DNA of 64,000 nt from Actinomycetota bacterium (GTDB lineage: Bacteria > Actinomycetota > Acidimicrobiia > Acidimicrobiales > Ilumatobacteraceae): positions 1 to 64,000 of the forward strand of contig JACQZZ010000003.1 in assembly GCA_016213625.1 (NCBI GenBank), read 5' to 3'. Numbering within the stretch: the first letter of the stretch is position 1; each line of letters opens with the position of its first letter. This document shows positions 14,030 through 52,513 of this stretch, one piece after another. A program made the position numbers and the translations under genes. The notes beneath the pieces were generated by a model, which saw nothing but the letters and a program-made list of their open reading frames with translations, was not told the origin of the DNA and searched no databases.

Positions 14030-14081
14030 GTGGGTAGCCTCCGTGTGTCCCGCCGCTCACCGCGTGCTGGATCCCTTGCGC

Positions 14082-14846: not shown

Positions 14847-14864
14847 CCCCACCACGCCGGTCCG

Positions 14865-15857: not shown

Positions 15858-15906
15858 GCGAGCGGACACTATCGACGCAGCGGACGTCCCCAACCTGGCC
15901 CGCCCG

Positions 15907-15943: not shown

Positions 15944-15977
15944 GCGCACCACGGGGGCGTCACCGGGCCGAAAACCT

Positions 15978-16016
15978 TGAATGCTCAGCGCCCGATCGTC
16001 GGGCGCTGAGCATTCA
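15978..16016. repeat. Palindromic repeat, copy 3 of 3 (perfect)
   Basis: A perfect 18-bp inverted repeat (15978-15995 and 15999-16016, starting TGAATGCTCAGCGCCCGA) around TCG. It is the best-conserved copy and lies 21 bases after the pilC stop, so it could terminate the pilB-pilC transcript. Same sequence family as the copies at 14865 and 15907. Confidence 0.88.
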
Positions 16017-16036
16017 GAACTGACGGGAGCGGTGGG

Positions 16037-17248
16037 TCAGGCGGTGGCCTTGAGTCCGTTCATCACGCCGTACATGGCCTGCACGAGGGCGACGGCCACG
16101 AAGCCGACGATGACACCCACGAACACGATCATCAACGGCTCGAACATCGTGGTGAACTTCTTGATGCGGCTCTCGAGCTCGCGGTCGAAGTACAGGCTGG
16201 CCACTTCGAGCTGCTGGTCGAGCGTTCCGGTCTCTTCGCCGACCTTGAACATCTGGCGGGCGGCGCCGGGGAACAGCTCGGTGCGGGCGAGCGGCTTGGC
16301 GAAGCCGGCGCCTTCCATGATCTCCACCTGGGCCTCGGCGAGGCGCTCGCGGAACACGATGTTGCTCGTGGCCTCGGTGGTGGTCTTCATCGCATCGGGC
16401 AGCGGCACACCGGCCTTCACCATGGCGCCGAGGATGCGGCAGAAGCGCTCGAGAATGGAGTACTCGATGATGCCGCGCACCACCGGGAGCTTGAGCACGA
16501 GCCGGTCCTTGAACGCTCGACCTGTCTCGCTGCGGAACATCCACACCATCCAGGCCGTGAACAGACCGCCGATGCTGAACGGGATGTACCAGAGCGTGCT
16601 GAACAGGGTGGCCACGAACAGCAGCGCGCGAGTGGCGAAGGGCAGGTCGGCATTGAGCTCCTCGAACAACGGCTTGAACTGAGGCAGCACGTAACCGGCC
16701 AACACGGCCACGGTGAAGACGGCCAACACCATGACGACGCCCGGGTACGAGAGCGCGGAGATCACCTTCGACCGCGTCTCGAGCTCGCGCTCGAGGTAGC
16801 CGGCCAGGTTCTCCAGCGTCTCGTCGAGCTTGCCGGTGAGTTCCGCCGACCCGAGGATGCCGATGTAGTACTTCGGGAACGCTTCGGGGTGCTTGCTGGC
16901 GGCGCCGGAGAGCGTGCCGCCGTTGCGGATGTCCTCCACCATGTGCGAGATGGTGCGCTGCAGCGCGACGTCGGTGGTCTCGTCGCCGATGATCTCCATC
17001 GCCTCGGTGAGCGGGATACCGGCCTTCACGAAGACGGCCAGCTGACGCGTGAAGTGCATCAGCTCCTTCTTCTTCACCTTCTCCTTGGTGAGCTCGATGG
17101 AGAGCGCGCCGCGCTTCTCCTCGATCTTCACCGGGTAAAGGCTCTTGTCGAGCAGGTGTGCTCGAGCTTCGCCGATCGTGTCGGCCTTGGTGACGCCTTC
17201 GACCGACGTGCCGTTGGCGTCGATTGCGGCGTAGGCGAACCTGGGCAT
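16037..17248 (-). CDS. pilC: Type IV pilus inner-membrane platform protein PilC (T2SS F family)
   Basis: 403 residues, normal for PilC. Two homologous T2SSF units are visible, each with a soluble helical part followed by membrane helices: first FTRQLAVFVKAGIPLTEAMEI ... VVMVLAVFTVAVLAGYVLP, second RFCRILGAMVKAGVPLPDAM ... PLMIVFVGVIVGFVAVALV. The N-terminus (MPRFAYAAIDANGTSVEG) is typical of the family. PilC transmits PilB/PilT motion to the growing fibre. It starts 11 bases after the pilB stop, so the two are one operon. The perfect palindrome follows its stop. Confidence 0.95.
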   Translation of the reverse strand: MPRFAYAAIDANGTSVEGVTKADTIGEARAHLLDKSLYPVKIEEKRGALSIELTKEKVKKKELMHFTRQLAVFVKAGIPLTEAMEIIGDETTDVALQRTISHMVEDIRNGGTLSGAASKHPEAFPKYYIGILGSAELTGKLDETLENLAGYLERELETRSKVISALSYPGVVMVLAVFTVAVLAGYVLPQFKPLFEELNADLPFATRALLFVATLFSTLWYIPFSIGGLFTAWMVWMFRSETGRAFKDRLVLKLPVVRGIIEYSILERFCRILGAMVKAGVPLPDAMKTTTEATSNIVFRERLAEAQVEIMEGAGFAKPLARTELFPGAARQMFKVGEETGTLDQQLEVASLYFDRELESRIKKFTTMFEPLMIVFVGVIVGFVAVALVQAMYGVMNGLKATA

Positions 17249-17259
17249 GAGTGTGGCTC

Positions 17260-37144: not shown

Positions 37145-37843
37145 ATGAGCTTTTGGCCGACCAAGGAGCACTGGAGCGTCGACATTCCGCTCCGTACCAA
37201 CCACTACCTCTGCCCCGCGCTCGAGGAAACAGGGTTCGTGGCCCTCACGCCCTACGCGGGTGAGATCCCCACCGAGGAGTGGGAGTCGCTCGAGTACATG
37301 GATTGGAAGAGCGGCGGCGACACCAACTTCGCGCCGCTCGCCTCGGCCGACGGCACGCTCGACTGCCGTGGGTTCTGGGACAAGGGCAAGACCGACAAGG
37401 ACGCGCTGTGGACCCCGAACGCCGAGAAGGCGCCCACGCTGCGTTCCTATGTCGACAGCATCGGCGCCAACTTCGGTCGCGTGCGCATCATCAAGCTCGA
37501 ACCGCAGGACCGCGAGCAGGCGATGAAGAGCTTCCACCGCGACGACAACAACCGGTTCAACCCCGAGGGCACCGGTTGGGTGGTTCGCACCTGGATCGAG
37601 CTCACCGACGACTCCGACAGTTACATGCTGCTGATGGATCTCGACGAGGACCGTTTGCCCATCCCCAGCACCGAGCGTCGGGTGCCGCTGCCCCGCTTCT
37701 CGCGGTTCGTGGTCGACACGCAGCGCCTGTGGCACGTGGTCGTGCACCACGGCAACGCCCCTCGCTACGGCCTCATCACGAGCGTGGAGTGCACCCCGCA
37801 CCTGCAGGACTGGATCGACAGCCAGGTCCCGGCGCTCGTCTGA
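37145..37843 (+). CDS. Probable 2-oxoglutarate/Fe(II) oxygenase-like protein (Asp/Asn hydroxylase type)
   Basis: 232 residues from ATG 37145. The C-terminal half carries an HxD...H arrangement compatible with a jelly-roll oxygenase: FHRDDNNRFNPEGTGWVVRTWIEL, then RFSRFVVDTQRLWHVVVHHG, APRYGLI with the Arg that usually binds 2-oxoglutarate. This pattern resembles the aspartyl/asparaginyl beta-hydroxylase family. The N-terminal part (MSFWPTKEHWSVDIPLRTNHY) is not one I recognise. It lies 48 bases upstream of the HPr-kinase-like gene on the same strand and may form an operon with it. Assignment is by motif only. Confidence 0.55.
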   Translation: MSFWPTKEHWSVDIPLRTNHYLCPALEETGFVALTPYAGEIPTEEWESLEYMDWKSGGDTNFAPLASADGTLDCRGFWDKGKTDKDALWTPNAEKAPTLRSYVDSIGANFGRVRIIKLEPQDREQAMKSFHRDDNNRFNPEGTGWVVRTWIELTDDSDSYMLLMDLDEDRLPIPSTERRVPLPRFSRFVVDTQRLWHVVVHHGNAPRYGLITSVECTPHLQDWIDSQVPALV

Positions 37844-37891
37844 GCGTCCACCACGCCTGCATCGCGGTCGTCAGGCTCTAGCCTGCCCGCC

Positions 37892-38812
37892 GTGCCATCG
37901 CCCACCGCTCGCTACCGTCCGATGGGTGTCGATGTGCAGCTCGTCGGCGACCTCCCGGAGGTGCAGGCAGCGCTGGAAGCTGGGCTCGGACGGTATCCCG
38001 ACGACCTCGGCGTGGCCGGTTCGCTGCACATCTCCGTGCGCCGGCATCCCGACCAGCCGGGCGACCCTGCATGGCCGCACGTGCAGGCTGCCGACGGAGA
38101 CCACGAGTTGGTGGTGCGTTGCGGGTCGGCGGTGGCCACGCTCCGCTACGCAGACGGCTCGGTGGATCTCGACGTGCCGACGTCGCTCGCGGCGGTGCCC
38201 GATGCGCTGCGGCTGTTCGTCGAGAGCGTGTTCACCGCGTCGCTCGTGCGGGCCGGCCGCCTGCACGCGGTGCACAGCGCATTGGTGGTGTCCGACGGCA
38301 TCGGGCTGGTGCTGCGTGGGCCCTCGGGTGCCGGGAAGAGCACCCTCACCTACTCGTGTCTGCGTCGGGGCATGGGCGTGTGCAGCGACGACTGGGTCTA
38401 CGCGCCGGCGCACACTCGGCCCGAGCGCTTTGCCGGGTACCCCTGGCGGATGATGATGACCGAGGACGCGTCGTCCAGGTTCCCGGAACTCGTCGGGCGC
38501 GTCACCGTGCCCCATCCTGCGGCCGAGGGCAGGAAGGTCCCCGTCGTTCCGCCCGCCGACCAGCAGGTGCCGGTGGCCACGGCACACGCGTTGGTGCTGC
38601 TCGACCCCGACCCGACGCTGTCGTTGCGTGCGGTGTCGGTCGACGAGGCGACGGAACGGTTCTGGTCGTCGGCACTGCCCACCGAGCAGGAGCACCTGGC
38701 GCCCGACTGGGTCGTGTCGCTGTCGACGCTGCCTGCGTTCGTGTTGCGGCGGGGGACGGACCCCATCGCCGCCACTCAGGCGTTGGCCGATCTGGCTGCC
38801 AGCCTGCGGTAG
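37892..38812 (+). CDS. HPr-kinase-like P-loop protein (HprK-related)
   Basis: 306 residues. A P-loop RGPSGAGKST (Lys149) is followed by the HprK-like acidic segment VCSDDWVY, and preceded by RLHAVHSALVVSDGIGLVL, a region shared by HPr-kinase/phosphorylase relatives and PEP-carboxykinase-like kinases. True HprK acts on HPr of the sugar PTS, but no PTS gene is nearby. HprK-related kinases are found in peptide-modification loci (some lasso peptides) and in glycan clusters, where they phosphorylate a peptide or other small acceptor. The product here is not known. Its 3' end overlaps the convergent glycosyltransferase by 37 bases. Confidence 0.72.
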   Translation: MPSPTARYRPMGVDVQLVGDLPEVQAALEAGLGRYPDDLGVAGSLHISVRRHPDQPGDPAWPHVQAADGDHELVVRCGSAVATLRYADGSVDLDVPTSLAAVPDALRLFVESVFTASLVRAGRLHAVHSALVVSDGIGLVLRGPSGAGKSTLTYSCLRRGMGVCSDDWVYAPAHTRPERFAGYPWRMMMTEDASSRFPELVGRVTVPHPAAEGRKVPVVPPADQQVPVATAHALVLLDPDPTLSLRAVSVDEATERFWSSALPTEQEHLAPDWVVSLSTLPAFVLRRGTDPIAATQALADLAASLR

Positions 38813-39909
38813 AGCTGGTCGAACGCGCTCGCGGTGAAGGCCGCGTCGTGCTGGGTGGCCCACGAGTGTGCCGCACGCGACAGCGCGTCGCGCCGAGGTC
38901 GGTCGGCGAGCAGCTGTGTGATGGCATACGCGAGCGTGGCCGGCCGCCGATCCGCGACCGCGACGGCAGCCGGTGTGCGCATCGCGGCGAAGTCGGCGAC
39001 GTGACCGACCGAAGTGCCGACGGTGGGGACGCCACAGGCTGCTGCCTCCAACACTGCCAGCGGCCCCGCGTCGTGATGCGAGGTGAGCGCATGCAGCGCG
39101 GCGCCGGCCAGCACCGGCGCCAGCTGGTCGTGGGGCACGTGGCCGAGGAACTCCACGCGATCGGCGACGCCGAGTTCGGTGGCGAGCTGTTCGTGATGGC
39201 CGGCCAGGGTGTCGCCGCCGGCGATGGTGAGCGTGAGGCGCGGCTCGTCGTGCAGCGCCAACGCGAATGCTCGCAGCAGCAGGTCTTGGTCCTTCACCAG
39301 ATTGCGCCCGGCGAGGTGCACCAGGTGCTGTGGGCGCGGAGGTGTGCCGGCGGCGACCGTGCAGTGTCGGAGATCGGCACCCAGGGGAATCACCTCATGC
39401 ACTCGGCCTCCCGCGGCCTGCACGTGCTGACGCATCCACTCGGTGGCGACGGTGGTGGCGGTGGCACCTCGGAGTGCCAGTAGGGCCAGTCGCCGAGTGC
39501 CGTCGCGCAACCCGCCGCCGTAGCCGATGGCGGGCACTGCGGCCAGCTCGCCGCCACACACACTGACGACGCTGGGCACGCGGAACCGACGTGCGGCGAC
39601 CACCGCGGCGAGGCCCGGCAGGTTGGCCCACAGACCGTGCACCACCTGAGGTCGCCCGTGTCGGCCGATGGCGCGAGGCACCTCGTACAGCACGCGGCCG
39701 ATGTCGACCTTGCCGTGATCGCCGACCGGCACGTTGACGACGGGCGCGCCGAACATCGACCACTCGCCGGGCTCGGTGTCGTGCCCGGTGGCGATGATCG
39801 TGACCTGATGCTGCTCGACCAGCGACTCGACCAGGTGGTGCACGAACGGGATGACGCGCTCGCCGCCGGGAGGGTCCACCCCGCCGGGCACCACGAGCGC
39901 GATTCGCAT
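38776..39909 (-). CDS. GT4-family glycosyltransferase
   Basis: 377 residues from ATG 39909 (MRIALVVPGGVDPPGGERV). GT-B fold: an N-terminal acceptor domain and a C-terminal donor domain with HLVHLAGRNLVKDQDLLLRA, VEFLGHVPHDQLAPVLAGA, and ADAGPLAVLEAAACGVPTVGT in the form HDAGPLAVLEAAACG (the EX7E-like donor site). It transfers a sugar from a nucleotide donor. It is divergent from the nucleotidyltransferase gene (66-bp gap) and convergent with the HprK-like gene, so it is not part of their transcripts, though physically inside the same island. Confidence 0.88.
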   Translation of the reverse strand: MRIALVVPGGVDPPGGERVIPFVHHLVESLVEQHQVTIIATGHDTEPGEWSMFGAPVVNVPVGDHGKVDIGRVLYEVPRAIGRHGRPQVVHGLWANLPGLAAVVAARRFRVPSVVSVCGGELAAVPAIGYGGGLRDGTRRLALLALRGATATTVATEWMRQHVQAAGGRVHEVIPLGADLRHCTVAAGTPPRPQHLVHLAGRNLVKDQDLLLRAFALALHDEPRLTLTIAGGDTLAGHHEQLATELGVADRVEFLGHVPHDQLAPVLAGAALHALTSHHDAGPLAVLEAAACGVPTVGTSVGHVADFAAMRTPAAVAVADRRPATLAYAITQLLADRPRRDALSRAAHSWATQHDAAFTASAFDQLYRRLAARSANA

Positions 39910-39975
39910 GCCCCGAGTCTGGCAGGGACGGGCGTCGCTAGTGTCGGGCAGATCGCTGCTCCGCTCGTCACCCCG

Positions 39976-41022
39976 ATGCGCGACCGCCAACTCCAGGTGG
40001 TTGACGCCGTGCTCGCTCGTGTGCAGGGCCGAACGTCGAAGCCGCTCGCATGGTCACTGCCCGACGTGCAGCTCGCAGGACTGGCCACCGGACTCACCGC
40101 GCTCGCCGCCACGTCCGACGTGTTCGCGGCCGACGCGCCGGAGGTGCGCGACTACCTGGTCGATCAGCAGCGGCAGGTCGCCGGTCGGGTCGAGCGGTTC
40201 CGTGAGGTCACGCCACGCGTGCTCGCCGCCTTGGCGTCCGCCGACCTCGTCGCGGTGCCGGTGAAGGGTGCGGTGCTCACCGGTGCGGCCGGCGACGACC
40301 CGGTGTGGCCCCAGCCGGCAACGCGTCCGATGAGCGACATCGACCTGTTGGTCGCGCCGCACCAGCGCGCACAGGCCGCTGCCGTATTGGCGCGTGGGGG
40401 TTGGTCGTTGCACTCGTCGTCGGACCACGAGGACACGTTCCTCGCCTGGGGCGACGGCGGACAGGGCCGTCTGGACGGCGAGTCCGTCGAGCACAACGGG
40501 CGTGTGGAGGTGCACCCCGGTTGGGTGGAGTTCCTCCACGGCTATCTGGCATGCGGCTTCGAACTCCGCCCCCATCTCCGCCACACCGACGACGGGCAGT
40601 GGCGGCTGAGCAACTCAGCGCTCGCCGCGCACGTCATCGGCCATCTGGCGTCCACCGTGGTGCGTGCCGAGGTACGGGCGGTGAACGTCGTCGACGTCTG
40701 GTTCCTGCACGCTCGCGGTGTCGACTGGTCGGCGATCGGTGAGGTGCAGCAGGAGGTCGACCCGCGGCTCACCGCGCCCGGCCTGTGGCTGGTCGATCGT
40801 CTGCTCCCGGATGTCGTGCCGCCGTGGTTGCTCCAGCGCGAGCTCGCCCGGCTGCCCCATCCCGATGTGCTCGATGCGCTCTCGCCTGCCTCGGTGCTGC
40901 GCGACCCCACGCAGCGCACCACCATGCGATGGCGATCGTCGTTCGCCTCGTCGGTCGCGGAACGGGCGGCGGTGGGTCGGCAGGCGAGTGAGTCGGTCGT
41001 GGCGAGGGTTCGTCGCCGATGA
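39976..41022 (+). CDS. Nucleotidyltransferase-family protein (PF14907, NTP_transf_5 type)
   Basis: 348 residues from ATG 39976. The polymerase-beta-like signature is clear: VAVPVKGAVLTGAAGDDPVW, then RPMSDIDLLVAPHQRAQA with Asp121 and Asp123 as the metal pair. A later acidic/His region (VEVHPGWVEFLH) fits the family. These proteins occur in peptide-natural-product and exopolysaccharide clusters with HprK-related kinases. Their chemical role is mostly untested. It is the first gene of a four-gene coupled unit (39976-44438) and overlaps the next start (ATGA). Confidence 0.8.
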   Translation: MRDRQLQVVDAVLARVQGRTSKPLAWSLPDVQLAGLATGLTALAATSDVFAADAPEVRDYLVDQQRQVAGRVERFREVTPRVLAALASADLVAVPVKGAVLTGAAGDDPVWPQPATRPMSDIDLLVAPHQRAQAAAVLARGGWSLHSSSDHEDTFLAWGDGGQGRLDGESVEHNGRVEVHPGWVEFLHGYLACGFELRPHLRHTDDGQWRLSNSALAAHVIGHLASTVVRAEVRAVNVVDVWFLHARGVDWSAIGEVQQEVDPRLTAPGLWLVDRLLPDVVPPWLLQRELARLPHPDVLDALSPASVLRDPTQRTTMRWRSSFASSVAERAAVGRQASESVVARVRRR

Positions 41023-42086
41023 AGGTGGCCATCGTCATGCCGCCCGCCACCGGCTTTATGCCCGCGGCCGCCGTCGCGAGATGGAGCACGGTGACCGCAG
41101 CGGCCGAGGCGCTGCACCGCGACGGTCGTGCCGACCCGGAGGTGCACTGCCGTCACGTCAGCGAGTCGGCAGTGGTGGAACGCAACGGAGTCGAGTACCG
41201 ATTCCATTCGTCCGACCGGGCACTCGCCGCGTCCATCGGGAGCGCACGACCCGACGTCGTCCACGTGCACGGGCTCGGCTGGGCGCGGTTGATCCGTCGG
41301 CTCCACACCGGAGTCCGCGGCGTGCCCCTCGTGGCGCAGCACCACGGCGAGCTCCCGTTCACCGGTCGGGCGAGGGCGGGCCATCGCATGATTCGTCGGC
41401 ACATCGACGGCTACCTGTTCACGGGCGCGTCCACCGGCCAGGTGCAACCGTGGGTCGACGGTGGGGTCATCTCGCCGACCGCGCGTTGGTTCGAGGTGCT
41501 GGAAGCCGGCTCGCTGCTGCCGTCGGTCCCTGCACCGTCGGTGCAGCTCGAGGGCGACCCGGCGGTCCTGTGGGTGGGGCGTCTGAACGAGGGGAAGGAC
41601 CCGCTCACCGCCGTCGACGCGTTCGCACTCGCCGCCTCCACCCTGCCGCAGGCGCACCTGCACCTCCTGGCGTCCGACCGCACGCTGGAGCGCGAGGTGC
41701 GTGCGCGGATCGATGCGCTCGGCGTCGTCGGAGGCCGGGTCCATCTGCACGACGCCGTGCCGCACGAGCAGATCGCGGCGTGGTACGCCGCGTCCCATCT
41801 GTTCGTCTCGACCAGCCGTCACGAAGGGTCGGGCTACTCGCTCATCGAAGCGCTGACCTGCGGTTGCGTGCCGGTGGTGACGTCCATTCCGCCGCATCGA
41901 GCCATCGTCGGCGAGCTCGGCGGCCAGTTCGCGCCCGGCGACGCCCGCGGGGCGGCGGTGAGTCTGGCGACCTGTTCGACGATGCCCCGTGAACCGATCG
42001 CCACTGCAGCACGTACCATCGTGTCGTGGGGGAGGGTCGCCGAGCAGCTGGTCGGTGCCTACACCTCAGTGGTGCAGCGGACTTGA
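41019..42086 (+). CDS. GT4-family glycosyltransferase
   Basis: 355 residues, starting inside the stop of the nucleotidyltransferase gene. N-terminal domain MKVAIVMPPATGFMPAAAVA ... DVVHVHGLGWARLI. Donor domain VLWVGRLNEGKDPLTAVDAF, LHDAVPHEQIAAWYAASHLF, and SRHEGSGYSLIEALTCGCVPVV with the EX7E pair. Retaining GT-B enzyme by family, acceptor and sugar unknown. Translational coupling with the genes before it and the short gap (25 bases) to the radical SAM gene suggest one pathway. Confidence 0.9.
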   Translation: MKVAIVMPPATGFMPAAAVARWSTVTAAAEALHRDGRADPEVHCRHVSESAVVERNGVEYRFHSSDRALAASIGSARPDVVHVHGLGWARLIRRLHTGVRGVPLVAQHHGELPFTGRARAGHRMIRRHIDGYLFTGASTGQVQPWVDGGVISPTARWFEVLEAGSLLPSVPAPSVQLEGDPAVLWVGRLNEGKDPLTAVDAFALAASTLPQAHLHLLASDRTLEREVRARIDALGVVGGRVHLHDAVPHEQIAAWYAASHLFVSTSRHEGSGYSLIEALTCGCVPVVTSIPPHRAIVGELGGQFAPGDARGAAVSLATCSTMPREPIATAARTIVSWGRVAEQLVGAYTSVVQRT

Positions 42087-42111
42087 CACCGCGACTGAAC
42101 AGGGAGATTCG

Positions 42112-43611
42112 GTGACTCACATGGCCACGGTGTTGTTGGCGCATTCGTACTTCTTGCAGCTCGATCCGAAGCAGCACGCGAAGATGAAGCCCTACCCGCC
42201 GCTCAACACCCTGCACGCCGCGACGGTGTTGCGCAACGACGGCATCGAGGTGGCGGTGTTCGACGCGATGCTCGCCGCCGATGAGTCCGACTTCCAGGTC
42301 AGCCTCGACCTCCACCGCCCCGAGATCGTCGTGTTGTTCGAGGACAACTTCAACTTCCTCTCCAAGATGTGCCTCACGCGCATGCGTCAGGCCGCCATCA
42401 CGATGATCCACATGGCGCGCGCCGCCGGCTGTCGGGTCGCGGTCACCGGCGCCGATGTCACCGATCACCCAGAGGTGTACCTCGAGGCCGGTGCCGAGGC
42501 GTGCTTCCTCGGTGAAGGCGAGCACACGATGCACGAGGTGGTCGCGCGCTGGCTCGGCGATGATCCGCACCAGTCGGTGGCCGATCTGGCCGGCGTGGCC
42601 ACGTTGGTCGAGGGCGGCGTCGTGTCGAACGGCCGTCGGCCCATCGAGCGTCATCCCGACGTGTTCGGCCTTCCCTCTCGCGATCTCGTCGACATCGATG
42701 CGTATCGCACCGCGTGGCAGGAGGCGCACGGCAAGTTCTCGCTCAACGTGGTGTCCACGCGCGGATGCCCGTACTCCTGCAACTGGTGCGCGAAGCCCAT
42801 CTGGGGTCAGCGCTACTCCATGCGTTCCGCATCGGAAGTCGCCGACGAGGTGATCCACCTCGCTCGCGACTACCAGCCGGATCACCTGTGGTTCGCCGAC
42901 GACATCTTCGGTCTGCGCAGCGACTGGTTGGCCGCGTTCGCCGATCGTCTGCAGGCGGCCGAGGTGCGGGTGCCGTTCACGATGCAGAGCCGTTGCGACC
43001 TGATGAACGAACAGGCTGTCGATGCCCTGGCTCGGTCGGGGTGCGACGAGGTGTGGCTGGGCTGCGAGAGCGGCAGCCAACGCATCCTCGATGCGATGGA
43101 CAAGGAGATCACGGTCGAGCAGATCCGGGTGGCCCGTCAACGACTGGGCGACCACGGCATTCGTGCCTGCTTCTTCATCCAGTTCGGCTACCCCGGTGAG
43201 ACGTGGGACGACATCGAGAAGACCGTGGCGCTCGTCGCGGAACTGTTGCCCGACGACATTGGCGTGAGCGTGAGCTACCCGCTCCCCGGTACTCGCTTCC
43301 ACGAGATGGTGAAGCTGGAACTCGACGAACAGGCCAACTGGGAGACCTCGGGCGACCTGACGATGATGTTCCACGGCACGTACCCCACCGACATCTACCG
43401 CGAGCTCCACCTCAGCCTGCACGATCTGCTCGATCTGCGTCGCCGCGAAGCAGGTCTCAGCCGGGCGAAGCACGCGATGCTGCCCGACGTGCCGGTCGAC
43501 GAGCACCACCGTCGTGTCGAGGATCGGTGGATCGCGCTGCGGGCCCGCGAGGTGGCCGAGCGCAACCCGAACCCCACCCGTCTGCGGATCCCGGTGTTGA
43601 CTCAGCCGTGA
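42112..43611 (+). CDS. B12-binding-domain radical SAM enzyme
   Basis: 499 residues from GTG 42112, which has AGGGAG five bases upstream. An ATG at 42121 is an alternative. The N-terminal third looks like a cobalamin-binding Rossmann domain (VLLAHSYFLQLDPKQHAKM, VLRNDGIEVAVFDAM, RVAVTGADVTDHPEVY, AEACFLGEGEHT). The radical SAM core has the cluster motif CPYSCNWC (Cys219, Cys223, Cys226), the SAM-binding GCESGSQRILDAM, and YPGETWDDI. Relatives methylate unreactive carbons or rearrange skeletons in natural-product and lipid/glycan pathways. It overlaps the methyltransferase start (GTGA). Confidence 0.88.
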   Translation: MTHMATVLLAHSYFLQLDPKQHAKMKPYPPLNTLHAATVLRNDGIEVAVFDAMLAADESDFQVSLDLHRPEIVVLFEDNFNFLSKMCLTRMRQAAITMIHMARAAGCRVAVTGADVTDHPEVYLEAGAEACFLGEGEHTMHEVVARWLGDDPHQSVADLAGVATLVEGGVVSNGRRPIERHPDVFGLPSRDLVDIDAYRTAWQEAHGKFSLNVVSTRGCPYSCNWCAKPIWGQRYSMRSASEVADEVIHLARDYQPDHLWFADDIFGLRSDWLAAFADRLQAAEVRVPFTMQSRCDLMNEQAVDALARSGCDEVWLGCESGSQRILDAMDKEITVEQIRVARQRLGDHGIRACFFIQFGYPGETWDDIEKTVALVAELLPDDIGVSVSYPLPGTRFHEMVKLELDEQANWETSGDLTMMFHGTYPTDIYRELHLSLHDLLDLRRREAGLSRAKHAMLPDVPVDEHHRRVEDRWIALRAREVAERNPNPTRLRIPVLTQP

Positions 43612-44438
43612 GCGACCTCGAACAGCGGCTGCAGGCCACCGCGCTCGCCTTCGACAGTGTCGCGCCCACGTACGACGGCCCGCAGGGCAACAACCACCTC
43701 ATCCAGCGCATGCGCGACATCGTGTGGCGCCAGATCGACACACTCCTGCCGGCAGTACCCGCCGAGATGGTCGACCTCGGGTGTGGCACGGGCATCGACG
43801 CACAGCACTTCGCCGAGCTCGGTCACCATGTCGTGGCCACCGACTGGTCACCGGCCATGGTCGAGCGCGCCGCCGCTCGGGCCGCCATGGTCGCCCCCGG
43901 AACGATCGAGGCGGTGCACGCCGGGTCGCAGGAACTGCACCTGCTCGCACCCGAACACCTGGGTCGATTCCACATGGCGTACTCGAACTTCGGTCCGCTG
44001 AACTGCGTGCCCGACCTCTCGGTCACAGGGTCGGCGCTGGCCGACCTGATGCGACCGGGTGGCTACGCACTGTTCACCGTGATCGGTCGGTGGTGCCCGT
44101 GGGAGATGGCGCACTACGCACGCAAGCGTCGGTGGCAGCGGGCGAAGGTGCGTTTCGAGAAGGACATCACGCCGGTGGGCATGAACGGCGGCACCATCTG
44201 GACCCGCTATCACACGCCCCGCGAGTTCGCCCGCGAGTGGATCGGCACCGAGGGTCGCTGGGACCTCGTGCGCTACGAGGGCCTCAGCACGTTCGTGCCG
44301 CCGCCCTACCTCACCTCGATGAGCGAGCACCACCCGAAGATGTTCGAGCGCATGGCGGTGCTCGACGCGCACACCGCCTCCTGGCCGGTGCTGCGCAGCG
44401 TCGGCGATCACTTCCTCATCGTGTTGCGCCGCCGCTGA
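43608..44438 (+). CDS. Class I SAM-dependent methyltransferase in the radical SAM unit
   Basis: 276 residues from GTG 43608, overlapping the radical SAM stop. N-terminal TALAFDSVAPTYDGPQGNNHLIQRM is typical of small-molecule/quinone-type methyltransferases, then motif I EMVDLGCGTGIDAQHFAELGHHV, ATDWSPAMVERA, and the later FSNFGPLNCVPDL-type motif (here AYSNFGPLNCV). The pattern AYSNFGPLNC recurs in methyltransferases of polyketide and glycan pathways. Last gene of the four-gene unit. The GH13 gene follows after 40 bases and may be separate. Confidence 0.87.
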   Translation: MSDLEQRLQATALAFDSVAPTYDGPQGNNHLIQRMRDIVWRQIDTLLPAVPAEMVDLGCGTGIDAQHFAELGHHVVATDWSPAMVERAAARAAMVAPGTIEAVHAGSQELHLLAPEHLGRFHMAYSNFGPLNCVPDLSVTGSALADLMRPGGYALFTVIGRWCPWEMAHYARKRRWQRAKVRFEKDITPVGMNGGTIWTRYHTPREFAREWIGTEGRWDLVRYEGLSTFVPPPYLTSMSEHHPKMFERMAVLDAHTASWPVLRSVGDHFLIVLRRR

Positions 44439-44478: not shown

Positions 44479-46149
44479 ATGACCCAGGGCACGCCATGGT
44501 GGAAGGAGGCGGTGGTCTATCAGATCTATCCGCGGTCGTTCATGGATTCGAACGGCGACGGCATTGGCGATCTGAACGGCATCACTGCCCGCCTCGACCA
44601 TCTCCAGGAGTTGGGCATCGACACGGTGTGGCTCAGCCCACACTTCGACAGCCCGAACGCCGACAACGGCTACGACATCCGTGACTACCGCAAGGTGATG
44701 GCGGAGTTCGGCACGATGGACGACTTCGACCGCATGCTCGCGGCGATGAACGAGCGCGGCATCCGGCTGGTGCTCGACCTGGTGGTGAACCACAGCAGCG
44801 ACCAACACGAGTGGTTCGTGCAGAGTCGTTCGTCGCGCGACAACCCGTACCGCGACCACTACATCTGGCGCGACGGCCGCGATGGCGGCCCGCCGAACAA
44901 CTACCCGGCGTTCTTCGGTGGTTCGGCGTGGGAGTACGACGGTGCCACCGACCAGTGGTATCTGCACTACTTCGCCAAGGAGCAACCCGACCTCAACTGG
45001 GAGAACCCCACGGTGCGCGCCGAGGTGTACGACCTGATGAAGTTCTGGCTCGACAAGGGTGTCGCCGGCTTCCGAATGGACGTCATCGCGTTCATCTCCA
45101 AGCAGCCCGGCCTCCCGGATCTGATGGGCGACGAGCGGTTCCGCCCGCAGTACGTCTACGCCCGCGGCCCGCGCGTGCACGAGTTCCTGCACGAGATGCA
45201 CACCGAAGTGCTGGGCCCCTATGACGCCGTCTCCATCGGGGAGGCTTTCGGCGTGGAGGTGGCCGACATCGCCAAGTTCACCGACGTGGACCGTGAGGAA
45301 CTGTCGATGATCTTCCAGTTCGATCTGGTCCGCCTCGGTCACCCGCACTGGCGGCAGCAGTCGTTCACGTGGCCCGAGTTCAAGCGCATCGTGGCCGACA
45401 CCGACGCGGTCGCAGGTGCCAGTGGGTGGAACACGAGTTTCCTCGCCAACCACGACAACCCGCGCATGGTGTCGCAGTTCGGCGACGATCGCCCCGAGTG
45501 GCGTGAGCGTTCGGCGAAGGCGCTCGCCACCTGGAACCTCACCCAGCGGGCCACCCCGTTCATCTACCAGGGCGACGAGATCGGGATGACCAACTACCCG
45601 TTCACCTCCATCGAGCAGTACGACGACGTGGAGGTGCGTGGCCTGTGGCGCGGTCTGGTGGAGACCGGCAAGGTGTCGGCCGAGGAACTGCTCGCGAACC
45701 TCGCGCAGACCAGCCGGGATCACTCGCGCACGCCGGTGCAGTGGACGGCCGACGCGCACGGCGGGTTCACCACGGGCACGCCGTGGCTGGCGGTGAACCC
45801 GAACCACACCTCCATCAACGCCGAGTCGCAGCGCGACGACCCCGACTCGGTGTTCCACCACCATCGTGCCCTCATCGCACTGCGACGCAGCCATCGCGCG
45901 CTGGTGCACGGCGCGTACCGCGACCTCGACCCCGAGCACCCGTACGTGTACGCGTACACCCGCACCCTCGACGACGAGACGCTGCTCGTGCTGCTGCACC
46001 TCGGCACCGAGACGCACGAGTACACGTTGCCGCACGGCCTGCGGGTGGGCGACACGCTCATCGCGTGTGGCCGGGTGCCCGAGCCCGGCGCGGCCACCGT
46101 CACCCTGGAGGGCTGGCACTCGTCCATCCACGTCGTCAGCCACGGCTGA
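44479..46149 (+). CDS. GH13 alpha-glucosidase
   Basis: 556 residues. The (beta/alpha)8 barrel shows all GH13 regions: VVYQIYPRSFMDSNGDGIGDL, LVLDLVVNHSSDQH, nucleophile Asp201 in GFRMDVIAF, acid/base Glu255 in SIGEAFG, and transition-state Asp326 in FLANHDNPRMV. The start WWKEAVVYQIYPRSF and the EQPDLNWENP segment are typical of oligo-1,6-glucosidase/alpha-glucosidase enzymes. No signal peptide, so it acts in the cytoplasm on imported or internal oligosaccharides. It might also belong to the trehalose/sucrose-acting side of the family. Specificity is not resolved. Confidence 0.9.
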   Translation: MTQGTPWWKEAVVYQIYPRSFMDSNGDGIGDLNGITARLDHLQELGIDTVWLSPHFDSPNADNGYDIRDYRKVMAEFGTMDDFDRMLAAMNERGIRLVLDLVVNHSSDQHEWFVQSRSSRDNPYRDHYIWRDGRDGGPPNNYPAFFGGSAWEYDGATDQWYLHYFAKEQPDLNWENPTVRAEVYDLMKFWLDKGVAGFRMDVIAFISKQPGLPDLMGDERFRPQYVYARGPRVHEFLHEMHTEVLGPYDAVSIGEAFGVEVADIAKFTDVDREELSMIFQFDLVRLGHPHWRQQSFTWPEFKRIVADTDAVAGASGWNTSFLANHDNPRMVSQFGDDRPEWRERSAKALATWNLTQRATPFIYQGDEIGMTNYPFTSIEQYDDVEVRGLWRGLVETGKVSAEELLANLAQTSRDHSRTPVQWTADAHGGFTTGTPWLAVNPNHTSINAESQRDDPDSVFHHHRALIALRRSHRALVHGAYRDLDPEHPYVYAYTRTLDDETLLVLLHLGTETHEYTLPHGLRVGDTLIACGRVPEPGAATVTLEGWHSSIHVVSHG

Positions 46150-46170: not shown

Positions 46171-48078
46171 ATGCGAGTACACGGACCTGAACGACTCGGC
46201 GGGCAGGGCCTGCAGCCCGCCCAGGACGAATCCGGCGACCGGGCCATCCTCGCGCTGCTCACGGATCCGGTGGTCGGCCCGCAGGTGGATCTGCTGCTCA
46301 CCTGGCGTCCGCACGACGACGGCGCCGGGTACGAGGTGTGGTCGTCGCGTGGCATGGTGCGCTTTCGACGGCTGGTCGACGACCAGGGCGCACTGCACTT
46401 CGAGGTGGCCGAAGTGATCGGCCGGAACCCCATCGAGGCGCAGGATCCGTTGGCGCTCAGCACACTCGCGGCCGAGCGCGCCGCCGCCATCGCGTCGGGC
46501 TTCGACGGCGACGACCCGGAGCGCCGATTCATCGCCCCGGACCAGCAGAGCTACCCGTTCGGGTACGAGCGCGTGGCGCAGCTGTTCGACTCGCCGCATG
46601 CGCCCGACATCGCGGTGTCGCCGCGCGACTGGTGCTCGGGCAACCAGCCCGGCACCCATGGCGCGTTGCACGTGCGTCAGGCACGAGCACCGCTCTGGTT
46701 CAGCGGCCCCGGCATTCGTGCAGGTCGGGTCGAGCTGGCGGCACGTTCCGTCGACATCGCGCCCACCTGCCTGGCCGCGCTGGGGTTTCCCACGGTCGAG
46801 GGTGTCGGCCCGGCGGGGGTTCCCACCGACGACGTGTACCTCGCCCGTCAGGACGGTCGCCCTCTGCGCGAGATCCTCGACCCCGAGCAGCCCCAGCCCA
46901 CCCGGTTGTACGTGTTCCTCATGGACGGCATGCACCAGACGGAGCTGGAGGACCGACTCGCACGCGATCCCGACGGGTTGCCGAACCTGCGTCGCCTCCG
47001 CGATCGCGCGGCGGTGCTCGCGGGTGGCTCCATGGTGAACTTCCCGAGCATCACCTGGCCCAGCCACACCGCCATCGTCACGGGCACATGGTGCGGTCAC
47101 CACGGTGTGGTGAACCCCACGTACTACGTGCGCGAGGACCGCGAGACCGTGTCGCCCCAGGGTCTGCAGGTGGGCACCGAGCGATTCGCCAGCTCCGCCG
47201 TGGAGAGCCTGTACGAAGCGTTCCACCGCGTGCACCCCGACGCGATGACAGCGGCCATCCACGCCCCGTTCGGTCGCTCGGCCAAGCATGCGGTGCTCGA
47301 AGGGCGCAACCTGTGCGACCGGGCGCGGGTCAAAGAGCTCACGGTGCAGTTCGCCGGCGACATGAACCAGCGATGGGCCGATGAACACCCGGCCGTGGCG
47401 AGCGAGTCGTTGCTCGACACGCGTGGCCTGGCGCAGGTGTACGACCTGTTCACCCGCGACGATCTCCCTGCGCCGCTGTTCGTGTATCACGAGCTGGCCG
47501 TCACCGACGGCGCGGGGCACGAGTACGGCCCGCATCACGAGGGTCTGGCCGACGCGCTCACCGAGACCGATCGACGCATCGGCCACGTGCTCGCGCTCCT
47601 CGACGAGAAGGGACTGTTCGACGACACGTTGTTCGTCGTGTCGGCCGACCACGGCATGGCGCCGCAGGACACGTCGATGCGCGCGAACCCCGCGGCCCAC
47701 GTCCTGGATGCGGGCTTCGCCGCGGTGGTGGCGGAACCGATGATCTGGTTGCTCGACGTGTCGGTCGCCGTCGAGCGCAAACCCGACGCCCGCACGGCTC
47801 GGGTGGAGGTCACCGACGCCGATGCGCTCGCCAGCGGTGAGTACCCGGTGGTGGAGGGCGCGCTGGTCGATGTGTTCCTGCATCGTCCAGGGCTGGAGCC
47901 GCGCTCGCTGGCCAGTGGCCGTACCGACGCCAATGGTCTGTTCGGCTTCGCCACGCCCAGCGACGCCGACAGCGAACACATCACCGTCACCGTGCACGCC
48001 CAGGGTCGCAACCCCCGTCGCCTCCGCCTCGACGGCACGCCCCTCGGCATCGACCTCCGCGCCGCCCTCTACTCTTGA
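46171..48078 (+). CDS. Alkaline-phosphatase-superfamily phosphodiesterase/nucleotide pyrophosphatase
   Basis: 635 residues from ATG 46171 (GTG 46162 possible). The catalytic part lies at about residues 245-560: VFLMDGMHQTELEDRL, the Thr region NFPSITWPSHTAIVTGTWCGHHG, the metal pair LAVTDGAGHEYGPHHEG and VVSADHGMA. An unusual N-terminal segment of ~230 residues itself resembles part of a phosphatase fold (HGALHVRQARAPLWFSGPGI). A C-terminal beta domain (VVEGALVDVFLHRPGL ... DANGLFGFATPS) looks like a carbohydrate-binding or Ig-like module. No clear signal peptide. Substrate unknown. It lies 21 bases after the GH13 gene and is probably cotranscribed. Confidence 0.8.
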   Translation: MRVHGPERLGGQGLQPAQDESGDRAILALLTDPVVGPQVDLLLTWRPHDDGAGYEVWSSRGMVRFRRLVDDQGALHFEVAEVIGRNPIEAQDPLALSTLAAERAAAIASGFDGDDPERRFIAPDQQSYPFGYERVAQLFDSPHAPDIAVSPRDWCSGNQPGTHGALHVRQARAPLWFSGPGIRAGRVELAARSVDIAPTCLAALGFPTVEGVGPAGVPTDDVYLARQDGRPLREILDPEQPQPTRLYVFLMDGMHQTELEDRLARDPDGLPNLRRLRDRAAVLAGGSMVNFPSITWPSHTAIVTGTWCGHHGVVNPTYYVREDRETVSPQGLQVGTERFASSAVESLYEAFHRVHPDAMTAAIHAPFGRSAKHAVLEGRNLCDRARVKELTVQFAGDMNQRWADEHPAVASESLLDTRGLAQVYDLFTRDDLPAPLFVYHELAVTDGAGHEYGPHHEGLADALTETDRRIGHVLALLDEKGLFDDTLFVVSADHGMAPQDTSMRANPAAHVLDAGFAAVVAEPMIWLLDVSVAVERKPDARTARVEVTDADALASGEYPVVEGALVDVFLHRPGLEPRSLASGRTDANGLFGFATPSDADSEHITVTVHAQGRNPRRLRLDGTPLGIDLRAALYS

Positions 48079-48182: not shown

Positions 48183-48815
48183 TCAGGGGTCGGTGAAGCG
48201 GAAGACCACTTCGGGGACGGGTGTGGTGGCTCCGGGTCCATCGAAGCGGTGCGCACCCACGCCGTACTTGCCGGCCCCGGGCGAGTGGAATGCGATCTCG
48301 GTGCAGCCGGCATCGGCGAACCACTGACGGACCCGTGGGGTGATGTCGTCGCCACGTCGGTGACGAGTCCACACCACGTGTCCGCCGGGGCGTACGAGTG
48401 CCGGTACCGACCGGACGACGCGCGAGATGTCGTCATCGGTGATGTTGCCGAAGATGCCCGCGAGGATCAGCAGGTCCACCGGGGTGACGTCGAGCCAGTG
48501 CACGGACCGACCGGCATCGGCGCAACGCACCTCGATGCCGGTGCCCGCGTCGGCCAGGTTCGTCGCCGCGATCGCGGCCAGGCCGCCACTCAACTCCACG
48601 GCACATCCGGTCAGATCGCCGGCGCGTGCATGGCCGGTTGCGGCCGCGGTCAGATCGCGGGCCTCGCCGCAACACAGTGACAGCACCCGAATGGGACCGG
48701 CCGGCGAGCCGTCGATCACCGCGCGCACGGCATCGGTGACGACGACGAGTCGTTGCGACAGATCGCTGCCGGGGTCGGCATAGTCGCGGTGCCAGGCGGC
48801 CCAGTCGCGGCTCAT
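48183..48815 (-). CDS. Class I SAM-dependent methyltransferase
   Basis: 210 residues from ATG 48815. Motif I is partly altered (IRVLSLCCGEARDLTAAA), followed by AVELSGGLAAIAATN and the motif IV-like DLLILAGIFGNITDDD. The GIFGNI segment followed by HVVWTRHRR matches a family of small actinobacterial methyltransferases with no assigned substrate. It is last in the five-gene operon, 29 bases after the FAD oxidoreductase. Confidence 0.78.
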   Translation of the reverse strand: MSRDWAAWHRDYADPGSDLSQRLVVVTDAVRAVIDGSPAGPIRVLSLCCGEARDLTAAATGHARAGDLTGCAVELSGGLAAIAATNLADAGTGIEVRCADAGRSVHWLDVTPVDLLILAGIFGNITDDDISRVVRSVPALVRPGGHVVWTRHRRGDDITPRVRQWFADAGCTEIAFHSPGAGKYGVGAHRFDGPGATTPVPEVVFRFTDP

Positions 48816-48844
48816 GCGTCCGCAACCTAGCGAACCGTGGACGG

Positions 48845-50551
48845 TCAGTTTTCCGGTGAGTCCTCGGCGGACTGTGCGCGACGCTCGCGGAGCGATGCCG
48901 CTCGTTCGGCGCGCTTGGCTCGCAGCCGCTCGCCCCTGCAGTACTCGAGCGGGTCGAAGTCGTCGCCGTCGGCAGGAATCGACGCCGGGTCGATGAGCTG
49001 GGTGCCCATGTACATGTCGACGATGAGTGGGCGTTCGAGGATGTCGCTGGCGCAGAAGACACCGCCGCTGACGGCTCCCGCGATGCCGTGGCCGGACACG
49101 GTGTTGGCCCCCACCACCCACAGGCCGGGGATCTCGGTGCGGTACTGCGGGCGGTGATCGCCGGTCTGCTCGGGGGAGTGCAGGAAGCCGTAGCTGGTGC
49201 CACCGGTGGAGTGGGTGTACCGCTCGTGCGAGAGCGTGGTGGCCATCTCGACGTGCACGATGTGGTCGCGGAACGGGCCCAGCACGCGTTCTGCGGCGTC
49301 GATCAGTCGATCGGTCAACTGCTCCTTGCGAGCCCGGTAGTCCTCGTTGCGGCGGTACTGACCACCGTCGGCCGGGCCGGTGTCGACGCCCCAGAACTCG
49401 TTGCCACGCGGTGCGAGCGTCATGATCTGGAAGTTGGTGTGGCCGGGCGGACAGAGCTCGGGGTTGCCCGGGTCCTTGCGCGACGCGAGGGCCACGTAGG
49501 CGAACGGCACGTCACCGTGGGGGAGCGCGCCGCGATCCAGTTCCTCGTAGAGCTCGTCGGTGCGGTAGTCGGGGAAGATGAAGTAGTTGGTGTTCGGCCC
49601 GGTGAGTTCCACGTCGACCACGACGTACACGCAGACCAGCCCGAGGGTCATCACCGCGTCGTGCGCCCACTTCACGGTGCCCGGCGCCAGGTGTTCGGGA
49701 CCGAGGAGCTGCTCGACCGTGCGCCGGTAGTCCGCGTTGGAGACGACGATGGGTGCCTCGATCTCGGTGCCGTCGGCGAGGACCGCGCCGCACGCCACGC
49801 CGTCGCGCACCGTGATGCGCTCGACCGGCGACAGCGTGCGCACCTCGCCACCGGTGGCCTCCACGGCCTGCACCAGGCGGGCCGCGATCATCTGGCCGCC
49901 GCCTTCGGGGTAGAACGCGCCACCGTTCATGTAGTGGCCGATGATGTTGGCGTGCATCGACAGCACGGTCTGCTTCGGGCCGCCCGCGTAGAGACCCGAC
50001 CAGTGATCCAGCACGGCCTGCGCCTGCGGTGAGAGTTCGCTCTCGGCGAACAGTTCCGACAGCGGCCGCCGTGCCCACACGTCGGACACGGGCCGTGGTT
50101 CGCCGGGGAACGATCGTGCCTCGGTGGCCACGGAACGGAGCACGTGGATGCACTTCTCGATGCCGGCGCGTTCGTTCGGAAACTGCTCCACGAGGCGCCG
50201 TTCGTACTCATCCCAACCCGCCGGCACGCGGAACTCGAAGTCGGGGAAATGCAGCGTGTCGAACCCGTCGCGGTCGAGAGGCAGGAAGCGAAGCCGGTCG
50301 CCCACGCCGAGGGCGGCGAACACCACCGTGAACAGCCCGCCCGGTTGGCACTCGCCCACGTAGTGCACACCCACGTCGAACTCGTACCAGTCGTCGCCGT
50401 GGTGACGTCGAAACACTTGCGTGTTGCCGCCGGCCACGTCGTGCCGTTCGAGCACGAGGACGCGCTTGCCCGATGACCCGAGGCACGCCGCGGCGGTGAG
50501 CCCCCCGGGGCCGGATCCGATGACGATTGCATCCCAACGTTCGGTGCTCAT
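48845..50551 (-). CDS. FAD-dependent oxidoreductase, phytoene-desaturase/carotenoid-isomerase-like
   Basis: 568 residues. The N-terminal FAD-binding dinucleotide fold is clear (DAIVIGSGPGGLTAAACLGS ... VLVLERHDVAGGN), and the C-terminal FAD contact is GLWVVGANTVSGHGIAGAV. Overall pattern matches the CrtI/CrtISO/retinol-saturase group, which oxidises, reduces or isomerises polyunsaturated hydrocarbons. A carotenoid substrate is possible but no other carotenoid gene is nearby. The C-terminal tail is highly charged (ERLRAKRAERAASLRERRAQ). It starts 12 bases after the mutase stop and is probably cotranscribed. Confidence 0.82.
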   Translation of the reverse strand: MSTERWDAIVIGSGPGGLTAAACLGSSGKRVLVLERHDVAGGNTQVFRRHHGDDWYEFDVGVHYVGECQPGGLFTVVFAALGVGDRLRFLPLDRDGFDTLHFPDFEFRVPAGWDEYERRLVEQFPNERAGIEKCIHVLRSVATEARSFPGEPRPVSDVWARRPLSELFAESELSPQAQAVLDHWSGLYAGGPKQTVLSMHANIIGHYMNGGAFYPEGGGQMIAARLVQAVEATGGEVRTLSPVERITVRDGVACGAVLADGTEIEAPIVVSNADYRRTVEQLLGPEHLAPGTVKWAHDAVMTLGLVCVYVVVDVELTGPNTNYFIFPDYRTDELYEELDRGALPHGDVPFAYVALASRKDPGNPELCPPGHTNFQIMTLAPRGNEFWGVDTGPADGGQYRRNEDYRARKEQLTDRLIDAAERVLGPFRDHIVHVEMATTLSHERYTHSTGGTSYGFLHSPEQTGDHRPQYRTEIPGLWVVGANTVSGHGIAGAVSGGVFCASDILERPLIVDMYMGTQLIDPASIPADGDDFDPLEYCRGERLRAKRAERAASLRERRAQSAEDSPEN

Positions 50552-50563: not shown

Positions 50564-52513
50564 TCAGTTGGTGGAACGGTGTGCGGCGGCGAGGTTCGCC
50601 ACGTCGCGCATGATGCGCGACAGCTCGAAGTCCTTCGGCGTGTAGACGGCGCTGACGCCTGCGTCCGCGAGTCGTTGGCGGTCGGCTTCGGGGATGATGC
50701 CACCGACGATGACCGGTGCATCGACGCCTTCGGCGCGCAGCATGTCGACGATGGCGGGCACCAGCGACAGGTGCGAACCGCTCAGGATGGACAGACCGAT
50801 GACGTCGGGGTCTTCGTCGCGTGCGGAGGCGACGATCTGCTCGGGCGTGAGCCGGATGCCGCTGTACACGACCTCCATGCCGGCGTCGCGCGCTGCGACG
50901 GCGATCTGCTCGGCGCCGTTGCTGTGACCGTCGAGTCCGGGCTTGGCCACCAGGAACCGCGGCGGGCCACCCGTCATGCTCTTCACGAACTCGGCCACCG
51001 CCGCGAGTTCGCCCACCCGCCGGCCGACGGCGGCGTTGACGCCGGTGGGTGCACGGAACTCGCCGAACACCTCGCGCAGGCAGCCCGCCCACTCGCCGGT
51101 GGTGCCCCCGGCGACGGCGAGCGCGATGGAGGGCTCCATGATGTTCGCGCCGCTGACGGCGGCGTCGTGCAGGGCCGCGACGGCTGCATCCACCGCTGCC
51201 TGATCGCGAGCGCCGCGCCATTGCTCGAGCTCGGCGATGAGCTCGTGTTCGATGGCCGGGTCGACGGTGAGGATGTTGCCCGGCGAGTCGAGCGGCGACG
51301 GCTCGGTCTCGGTGTACGCGTTGACGCCGACCACCGTCAGGTCGCCCGCCTCGATACGACGAGTGCGCTCGCTCATGGAACGCACGAGCCGACCCTTCAG
51401 CTCGTCGACCGCCGCGAACGCACCACCCAGTGACAGCACCTCCTGCAGCTCGGCCCAGGCGGCGTCGCGCAGTTCGCCGGTCTTCGCTTCGATGACGGTG
51501 CTGCCGTCGAACAGGTCGCCGTACTCCAGCAGGTCGGTCTCGAACGCGAGCACCTGCTGCATACGCAGCGCCCACTGCTGGTCCCACGGGCGAGGCAGGC
51601 CGAGGGCTTCGTTCCACGCCGGCAGTTGCACGCTGCGCGCCCGTGCGTTCTTGGAGAGCGTGACGGCCAGCATCTCGAGCACGATGCGCTGCACGTTGTT
51701 CTCGGGCTGCGCCTCGGTGAGGCCGAGGCTGTTCACCTGCACGCCGTAGCGGAATCGGCGGGCCTTGGCATCGGTGACGCCGTACCGCTCGAAGCCGATG
51801 CGGTCCCACAACTCGGTGAACGCCCGCAGCTTGCAGATCTCCTCCACGAATCGGATGCCGGCGTTGACGAAGAACGAGATGGCCCCGAAGACCTGGCCGA
51901 ACTGTTCCGGCGCGACCTGACCGCTGTCGCGCACCGCGTCGAGCACGTCGATGGCCGTGGCCAGCGAGTAGGCGATCTCCTGCACCGGAGTCGCGCCGGC
52001 TTCCTGCAGGTGGTAGCTGCAGACGTTCATCGGGTTCCACTTCGGCGCGTGCTGCGCGCACCACGCCACCATGTCGACGATGAGCCGCTTGCTGGGTTCG
52101 GGCGGGAAGATGTACGTGCCGCGCGACAGGTACTCCTTCACGATGTCGTTCTGGGTGGTGCCGCGCAGGGCGGTGGTGGGCACGTCCTGTTCCTGCGCGT
52201 TGGCCACGTACAGGGCCAGCAGCCACGCGGCGGTGGCGTTGATGGTCATCGAGGTGTTCATCTGCCCCGGCGGAATGCCATCGAGCAGGGTGCGCATGTG
52301 GCCGAGGTGCACCACCGGCACGCCCACCTTGCCCACCTCGCCACGCGCGAGGACGTGGTCGGGGTCGTACCCCGTCTGCGTGGGCAGATCGAACGCGATG
52401 GAGAGACCGGTCTGCCCCTTGGCGAGGTTCGTGCGATACAGCTCATTGGATGCTCGCGCCGACGAGTGGCCCGAGTACGTCCGCATCAGCCAGGGTTCGT
52501 CACGCTGCGTCAT
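50564..52513 (-). CDS. ecm: Ethylmalonyl-CoA mutase (MeaA-type, B12-dependent)
   Basis: 649 residues from ATG 52513. The start PWLMRTYSGHSSARASNELY and the total length match the Ecm/MeaA branch rather than methylmalonyl-CoA mutase large subunits (about 730 residues). The substrate-binding barrel has QTGLSIAFDLPTQTGYDPDH, MNTSMTINATAAWLLALY and RGTTQNDIVKEYLSRGTY. The C-terminal cobalamin domain has KPGLDGHSNGAEQIA (DxHxxG) and GLSILSGSH. It converts ethylmalonyl-CoA to methylsuccinyl-CoA in the ethylmalonyl-CoA pathway. Ten bases separate it from aat. Subfamily call is by length and N-terminus, so a small mcm variant is the alternative. Confidence 0.85.
   Translation of the reverse strand: MTQRDEPWLMRTYSGHSSARASNELYRTNLAKGQTGLSIAFDLPTQTGYDPDHVLARGEVGKVGVPVVHLGHMRTLLDGIPPGQMNTSMTINATAAWLLALYVANAQEQDVPTTALRGTTQNDIVKEYLSRGTYIFPPEPSKRLIVDMVAWCAQHAPKWNPMNVCSYHLQEAGATPVQEIAYSLATAIDVLDAVRDSGQVAPEQFGQVFGAISFFVNAGIRFVEEICKLRAFTELWDRIGFERYGVTDAKARRFRYGVQVNSLGLTEAQPENNVQRIVLEMLAVTLSKNARARSVQLPAWNEALGLPRPWDQQWALRMQQVLAFETDLLEYGDLFDGSTVIEAKTGELRDAAWAELQEVLSLGGAFAAVDELKGRLVRSMSERTRRIEAGDLTVVGVNAYTETEPSPLDSPGNILTVDPAIEHELIAELEQWRGARDQAAVDAAVAALHDAAVSGANIMEPSIALAVAGGTTGEWAGCLREVFGEFRAPTGVNAAVGRRVGELAAVAEFVKSMTGGPPRFLVAKPGLDGHSNGAEQIAVAARDAGMEVVYSGIRLTPEQIVASARDEDPDVIGLSILSGSHLSLVPAIVDMLRAEGVDAPVIVGGIIPEADRQRLADAGVSAVYTPKDFELSRIMRDVANLAAAHRSTN

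Follow-up and report, generated by a model that had tools for sequence, protein, structure and literature searches.

Six neighboring genes in an actinobacterial contig (37892-44438 in the window, that is, the whole 64-kb stretch of DNA that was analyzed) form a real and uncharacterized set that recurs across several phyla near polysaccharide genes, and that, as read from sequence, probably builds or modifies a sugar-based molecule. The reading favored here, to which we assign a probability of roughly 0.5, is that they constitute a horizontally mobile set whose products make or decorate a glycan or glycoconjugate by the steps proposed below. The identities of the genes, their conservation, their insertion site, their recurrence across phyla and the polysaccharide genes in their company are matters of observation. 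A search of open-access literature returned nothing relevant to this gene combination, which may have been described elsewhere.

Composition of the gene set

The window represents the beginning of a 167-kb contig from a draft genome of 4.5 Mb that is 92% complete. All seven of the open reading frames named in an earlier note on this DNA were confirmed in it. While that note had treated the seven as one set, only six of them are conserved together, and the remaining gene (OXY, 37145-37843) belongs to the chromosomal backbone. The family labels that it had given to the nucleotidyltransferase, the two family-4 glycosyltransferases, the radical SAM protein and the methyltransferase correspond to clear profile matches; its oxygenase label corresponds to a motif only. 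Elsewhere in the window, at 6001-11333 and 12878-18879, gene calls place prepilin-like proteins (with an FTLVELL motif) followed by pilus-assembly-like proteins. The six genes are as follows.

37892..38812, plus strand: HPRK, HprK/PEPCK-fold kinase-like protein of 306 aa (weak HprK_C profile, AlphaFold fold, synteny)
38776..39909, minus strand: GT4a, family-4 glycosyltransferase (clear profile match), convergent with HPRK and divergent from NT
39976..41022, plus strand: NT, PF14907 minimal nucleotidyltransferase (profile score over the cut-off, invariant motif)
41019..42086, plus strand: GT4b, second family-4 glycosyltransferase (clear profile match)
42112..43611 (alternative start 42121), plus strand: RSAM_A, B12-binding-type radical SAM protein (profile, CPYSCNWC cluster motif)
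43608..44438, plus strand: MT, SAM-dependent methyltransferase (clear profile match)

The translational coupling described in the earlier note was borne out: NT and GT4b overlap in an ATGA, RSAM_A and MT overlap in a GTGA, and GT4b and RSAM_A are separated by 25 bp. The set does not constitute a single operon, since GT4a, which separates the kinase from NT, is encoded on the minus strand. Each of the six genes is under protein-level constraint, as indicated by less change at codon positions 1 and 2 than at position 3. The GC content differs little between the set (0.697) and its flanks (0.68), so that composition gives no support for recent transfer, and the description of the set as a compositional island was dropped.

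HPRK matches the HprK_C profile at 7.6e-6, below the cut-off, and its AlphaFold model (pLDDT 87) displays the HprK/PEPCK fold, with Foldseek matches to HprK/P (E 1.6e-5, TMt about 0.5) and to PEPCK (E about 2e-8), such that the protein has both the fold and the P-loop of HprK/PEPCK-fold kinases. Residues H128, K149 (in the P-loop) and D167 are invariant across phyla and position 166 is D or E, and the His-Lys-Asp-Asp residues reported for lasso-peptide kinases are matched at conserved positions. NT scores 67.3 bits against PF14907 (curated cut-off 31.2; E 2e-18), and its K97-G98...D121-x-D123 residues, which include the DxD catalytic motif, are invariant across phyla; a PDB profile search with NT returned nothing credible. 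RSAM_A matches the Radical_SAM profile clearly (7.7e-19), and the three cysteines of its CxxxCxxC 4Fe-4S motif (C219, C223 and C226) are invariant; its match to the B12-binding profile PF02310 is weak (28.6 bits, E 1.4e-6, under the 32.1 cut-off), and use of cobalamin by this protein is thus putative. MT is about 51% identical to the corresponding methyltransferase of the Xanthomonas/Dyella cluster.

Insertion site and conservation within the family

In the window the six genes and four others occupy, exactly, the interval between OXY and a mutase-type gene. The boundaries and the additional genes are as follows.

37145..37843, plus strand: OXY, oxygenase-like protein; backbone gene that borders the insertion on the left, not a member of the set
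44479..46149, plus strand: GH13 protein (alpha-glucosidase / trehalose-6-phosphate hydrolase-like), island cargo found in the window's genus only, not core
46171..48078, plus strand: type I phosphodiesterase/alkaline-phosphatase superfamily protein, likewise cargo of the island in the window's genus alone
48183-50551: methyltransferase-like and phytoene-desaturase-like genes, recognized from sequence, which extend the insertion in the window genome and were not beside the six genes in the other carriers examined
50564..52513, minus strand: mutase-type gene, recognized from sequence; backbone gene that borders the insertion on the right

OXY is present in 103 of 150 family genomes, and in cluster-free sites it is found between alpha/beta-hydrolase genes and the mutase-type gene, at a distance from the latter of only 39 bp (L157) or 84 bp (L159). 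In genus g21 and in genome G037 the six-gene set is located elsewhere in the genome, apart from OXY. Taken together, these empty sites and alternative locations depict a set that is mobile and favors one insertion site. In one further genome (G131; L152, 9990-13404) the interval between OXY and the mutase gene harbors an HPRK of 57% identity, together with a membrane-like protein of 282 aa and small open reading frames; the site may here hold another occupant, or a decayed one.

OXY itself is an uncharacterized family-wide protein beside the mutase gene, with its own conserved neighbors, and the notion of a seven-gene island that includes it was dropped. Its mean column identity is 82% (12-row alignment), and its invariant residues H131, D133, H197 and R207 resemble the iron and 2-oxoglutarate ligands of Fe/2-oxoglutarate oxygenases; the label 'oxygenase' derives only from this HxD...H...R-like motif. 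OXY has no Pfam or NCBIfam match and no credible PDB match, its structure model has a pLDDT of 36, and a search lacking a positive control found none in seven genomes of xanthomonads and other distant carriers.

Presence of the six genes was called by tblastn and profile searches. NT is found in 11 of the 150 family genomes, the window genome included, and in the other ten carriers, drawn from three genera, the order and orientation (HPRK >, < GT4a, NT >, GT4b >, RSAM >, MT >) are the same, with GT4a again reversed and with some losses: MT is absent from two loci of the window's own genus (L013 and L014), and HPRK is absent at L015, L020 and L021. Three of the loci (L019, L020 and L022) end at contig ends. 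In G120 (L015, L025) the MT that adjoins RSAM_A matches only piecewise, which suggests frameshift or decay. High-scoring RSAM is found in exactly the 11 genomes that bear NT (hypergeometric p about 7e-17, a value that ignores shared ancestry), and HPRK in 10 of those 11. In wider sampling, no carrier other than the window's own genome was seen among 296 phylum genomes sampled for NT or among 296 class genomes sampled for RSAM, both being thin samples with few members of the window's family. Many genomes of the collection are metagenome-assembled, with the attendant risk of binning errors; the carriers in Xanthomonas, Rhodanobacter, Dyella and Luteibacter include isolates.

The earlier note had called for a comparison of genome neighborhoods, and had held that its grouping would fall if the genes were not conserved together in any relative or if each had its own neighbors elsewhere. 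The six genes are syntenic in three genera, and relatives of all six are found together again in four proteobacterial genera; OXY is the gene for which separate, conserved neighbors were found.

A second locus, away from the main set, was found in several family genomes, with the arrangement HPRK'-RSAM_B-MT'-ZnMT in G120, G018 and G053, and RSAM_B-MT'-ZnMT in G087 and, cut by a contig end, in G109. Across these loci (L147, L148, L149, L150 and L151) each genome examined has the kinase at one of the two loci, main or second, and not at both. In Planctomycetota, Acidobacteriota and Chloroflexota a second radical SAM protein directly adjoins RSAM_A, and RSAM_B falls in its clade (SH-aLRT of the whole clade 90, by a quick method); the window's family thus possesses both enzymes, split over two loci. 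No RSAM_B was detected in the window's own 92%-complete genome, which may reflect either a real absence or the incompleteness of the assembly.

Recurrence beside polysaccharide genes in other phyla

A search for the RSAM protein across 84,980 species recovered at least 80 loci, the matches listed including Chloroflexi, Acidobacteria, Planctomycetota, Bacteroidetes and Proteobacteria. Relatives of the other five genes (HPRK, NT, GT4a, GT4b and MT) lie in a cluster with RSAM in Xanthomonas, Rhodanobacter, Dyella and Luteibacter. The block that surrounds the set in Dyella and Xanthomonas also encodes a Wzz protein (by Pfam) and GT2-like, Wzy-like, Wzx-like, DegT-like aminotransferase and QdtA-like proteins (the Wzx, Wzy, GT2, DegT and QdtA assignments in these loci being made from sequence, with no profile), together with acetyltransferases of the hexapeptide and GNAT types, an ABC exporter, an amidohydrolase and a second methyltransferase; in Dyella it encodes a second radical SAM protein as well. 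In both genera HPRK adjoins the ABC exporter, and Wzz lies near MT. In three proteobacterial loci (L112, L115 and L116) a TRZ/ATZ-like amidohydrolase and a second methyltransferase accompany the set, as does a second B12-type radical SAM protein in most of them; all three are absent from the window set.

In Chloroflexi a protein of about 312 aa (F6), followed by RSAM_A and MT, is found between Wzy-, GT2- and Wzx-like proteins. F6 carries a GS...DxD motif like that of minimal nucleotidyltransferases, has no Pfam or NCBIfam match, is encoded in L102 (1678-2616) and 20 other loci, immediately precedes RSAM_A in Chloroflexi and elsewhere, and is probably an undescribed family of minimal nucleotidyltransferase. 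Its position beside RSAM and MT indicates that the grouping of an NT-type protein, RSAM and MT near polysaccharide genes recurs with different nucleotidyltransferase families.

The two glycosyltransferases display a similar association. In a tree whose rows were GT4 proteins from RSAM loci, the window's GT4b falls in a 23-row clade (support 100/100) that otherwise contains only proteobacterial GT4b proteins of such loci. The clade of GT4a (28 rows, support 99/98) is composed solely of GT4 proteins from RSAM loci and spans the window's family, Proteobacteria, Chloroflexota and Bacteroidota. Both enzymes therefore appear to travel with the set, rather than being random GT4 neighbors.

In the window no flippase, polymerase or chain-length genes were found between the backbone genes, and the island carries no exporter or sugar-nucleotide genes, and so is unlike a complete polysaccharide locus. 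The earlier suggestion of a modified glycan or glycosylated small molecule is nonetheless supported in part by the Wzz, GT2 and Wzx/Wzy-like company of the set in other phyla.

Proposed function and relation to known systems

The substrate, the sequence in which the enzymes act, and both the phospho-glycosyl and the radical chemistry are inferred, as follows. GT4a and GT4b would build or extend a saccharide, HPRK would phosphorylate a hydroxyl on the acceptor, NT would add a nucleotidyl or hexosyl group to the acceptor phosphate, RSAM_A would carry out a radical change (for example, C-methylation), and MT would add the last methyl group; since some relatives lack HPRK or MT, or have them at another place, their steps are not essential everywhere. 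We propose that HPRK and NT act on a glycan or glycoconjugate by analogy with PsmK, which phosphorylates the C-terminal Ser of pseudomycoidin, and PsmN, an annotated nucleotidyltransferase that adds hexoses to the phospho-Ser (PMC9266682); true nucleotidyl transfer by PsmN combined with the action of a host glycosyltransferase is an alternative in that system, the direct activity of PsmN being uncertain (PMC9266682).

That the six genes are chance neighbors without a common function is very improbable. Their mixed strands, with GT4a reversed, and the membership of several in very large families would accord with chance, but the order kept in three genera, the clustered relatives in other phyla and the identical presence patterns of NT and RSAM do not, and synteny and co-occurrence refute it for all six, leaving it to hold only for OXY. 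A product that is a diffusible or lipid-linked glycosylated small metabolite, as opposed to a modified polymer, is a doubtful possibility that draws on the lack of flippase, polymerase and chain-length genes in the window island, on the presence of only two glycosyltransferases, and on the amidohydrolase and further methyltransferase genes that accompany the set in Proteobacteria; against it, Wzx/Wzy/Wzz-type genes are repeatedly nearby in two other phyla. End-capping of a glycan, in which HPRK would phosphorylate and MT would methylate the chain end, so stopping growth and marking the chain for export, seems quite unlikely. It has a precedent in the WbdD kinase-methyltransferase (PMC3482155), and agrees with the placement of HPRK and MT near the exporter and Wzz, respectively, in Xanthomonas and Dyella, but within the set HPRK and MT are kept least consistently, two carriers of the window's genus lack MT, and the window set is without an exporter.

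A system that tailors a ribosomal peptide whose gene lies elsewhere, and in which HPRK and NT would work in the manner of PsmK and PsmN, is likewise unlikely, although the pairing of kinase and annotated nucleotidyltransferase is that of pseudomycoidin and the lasso-kinase residues have conserved counterparts in HPRK. As the earlier note had stated, no cyclase, PqqD protein or precursor is found near the set: PqqD-type proteins (PF05402) gave 0 matches across the whole 92%-complete genome, in which positive controls were matched, and no asparagine-synthase-like cyclase (PF00733) lies near the kinase, the marginal and partial matches to that family all being on other contigs. The gaps of the cluster, at most about 66 bp, have no room for a precursor gene and contain none (a short reading frame nested in another gene, or lying in some other part of the genome, could encode one), and neither precursor nor cyclase was recognized in the clusters examined; a lasso or other ribosomal-peptide cluster was dropped on these grounds.

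With low probability, the glycan reading might be extended to a hitherto undescribed pathway, passed between phyla, in which HPRK and NT put phosphate-linked sugars on a glycan that the sister enzymes RSAM_A and RSAM_B and the methyltransferases then alter further, which, if true, would represent a new class of phosphorylated, C-modified bacterial glycoconjugate common to actinobacteria and xanthomonads. As a set, the genes bring together several enzyme families about which little is understood, in a pathway that can be tested in culturable carriers (Rhodanobacter, Dyella and Luteibacter). They connect B12-type radical SAM enzymes with polysaccharide loci in several phyla, and they place the combination of HprK-fold kinase and annotated nucleotidyltransferase, known from lasso peptides, in what is likely a glycan setting.

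Among known systems, the Wzx/Wzy/Wzz exopolysaccharide or O-antigen loci of Xanthomonas, Dyella and their relatives contain relatives of all six genes, whereas the window carries the set alone, without assembly machinery; to our knowledge, B12-type radical SAM proteins, HprK-like kinases and PF14907 proteins are non-standard parts of such loci. RSAM_A shares a superfamily with the ladder-lipid protein of TIGR04072 and with HpnJ, BchE and AprD4, which are among its best NCBIfam scores, but it falls far below every curated cut-off of the B12-binding radical SAM families (at best 117 versus 360 bits), and RSAM_A and RSAM_B form two clades separate from each other. The HprK-related kinase A and B families (TIGR04352 and TIGR04355) resemble HPRK in P-loop region and fold, but HPRK fails both, at no more than 28.7 bits against a cut-off of 200, and the window genome has no PqqD protein. 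In WbdD of E. coli O9a, kinase and methyltransferase activities are tied to glycan assembly, as those of HPRK and MT may be, although WbdD is a single bifunctional protein; the likeness drawn here is one of activities. The lasso clusters of pseudomycoidin and paeninodin (PsmK/PadeK and PsmN) likewise combine an HprK-fold kinase, with matching His-Lys-Asp-Asp residues, and an annotated nucleotidyltransferase; in contrast to them, the six-gene set is without precursor, B1/PqqD, B2 and C proteins, and instead has two family-4 glycosyltransferases, a B12-type radical SAM protein and a methyltransferase, and adjoins polysaccharide genes in other phyla.
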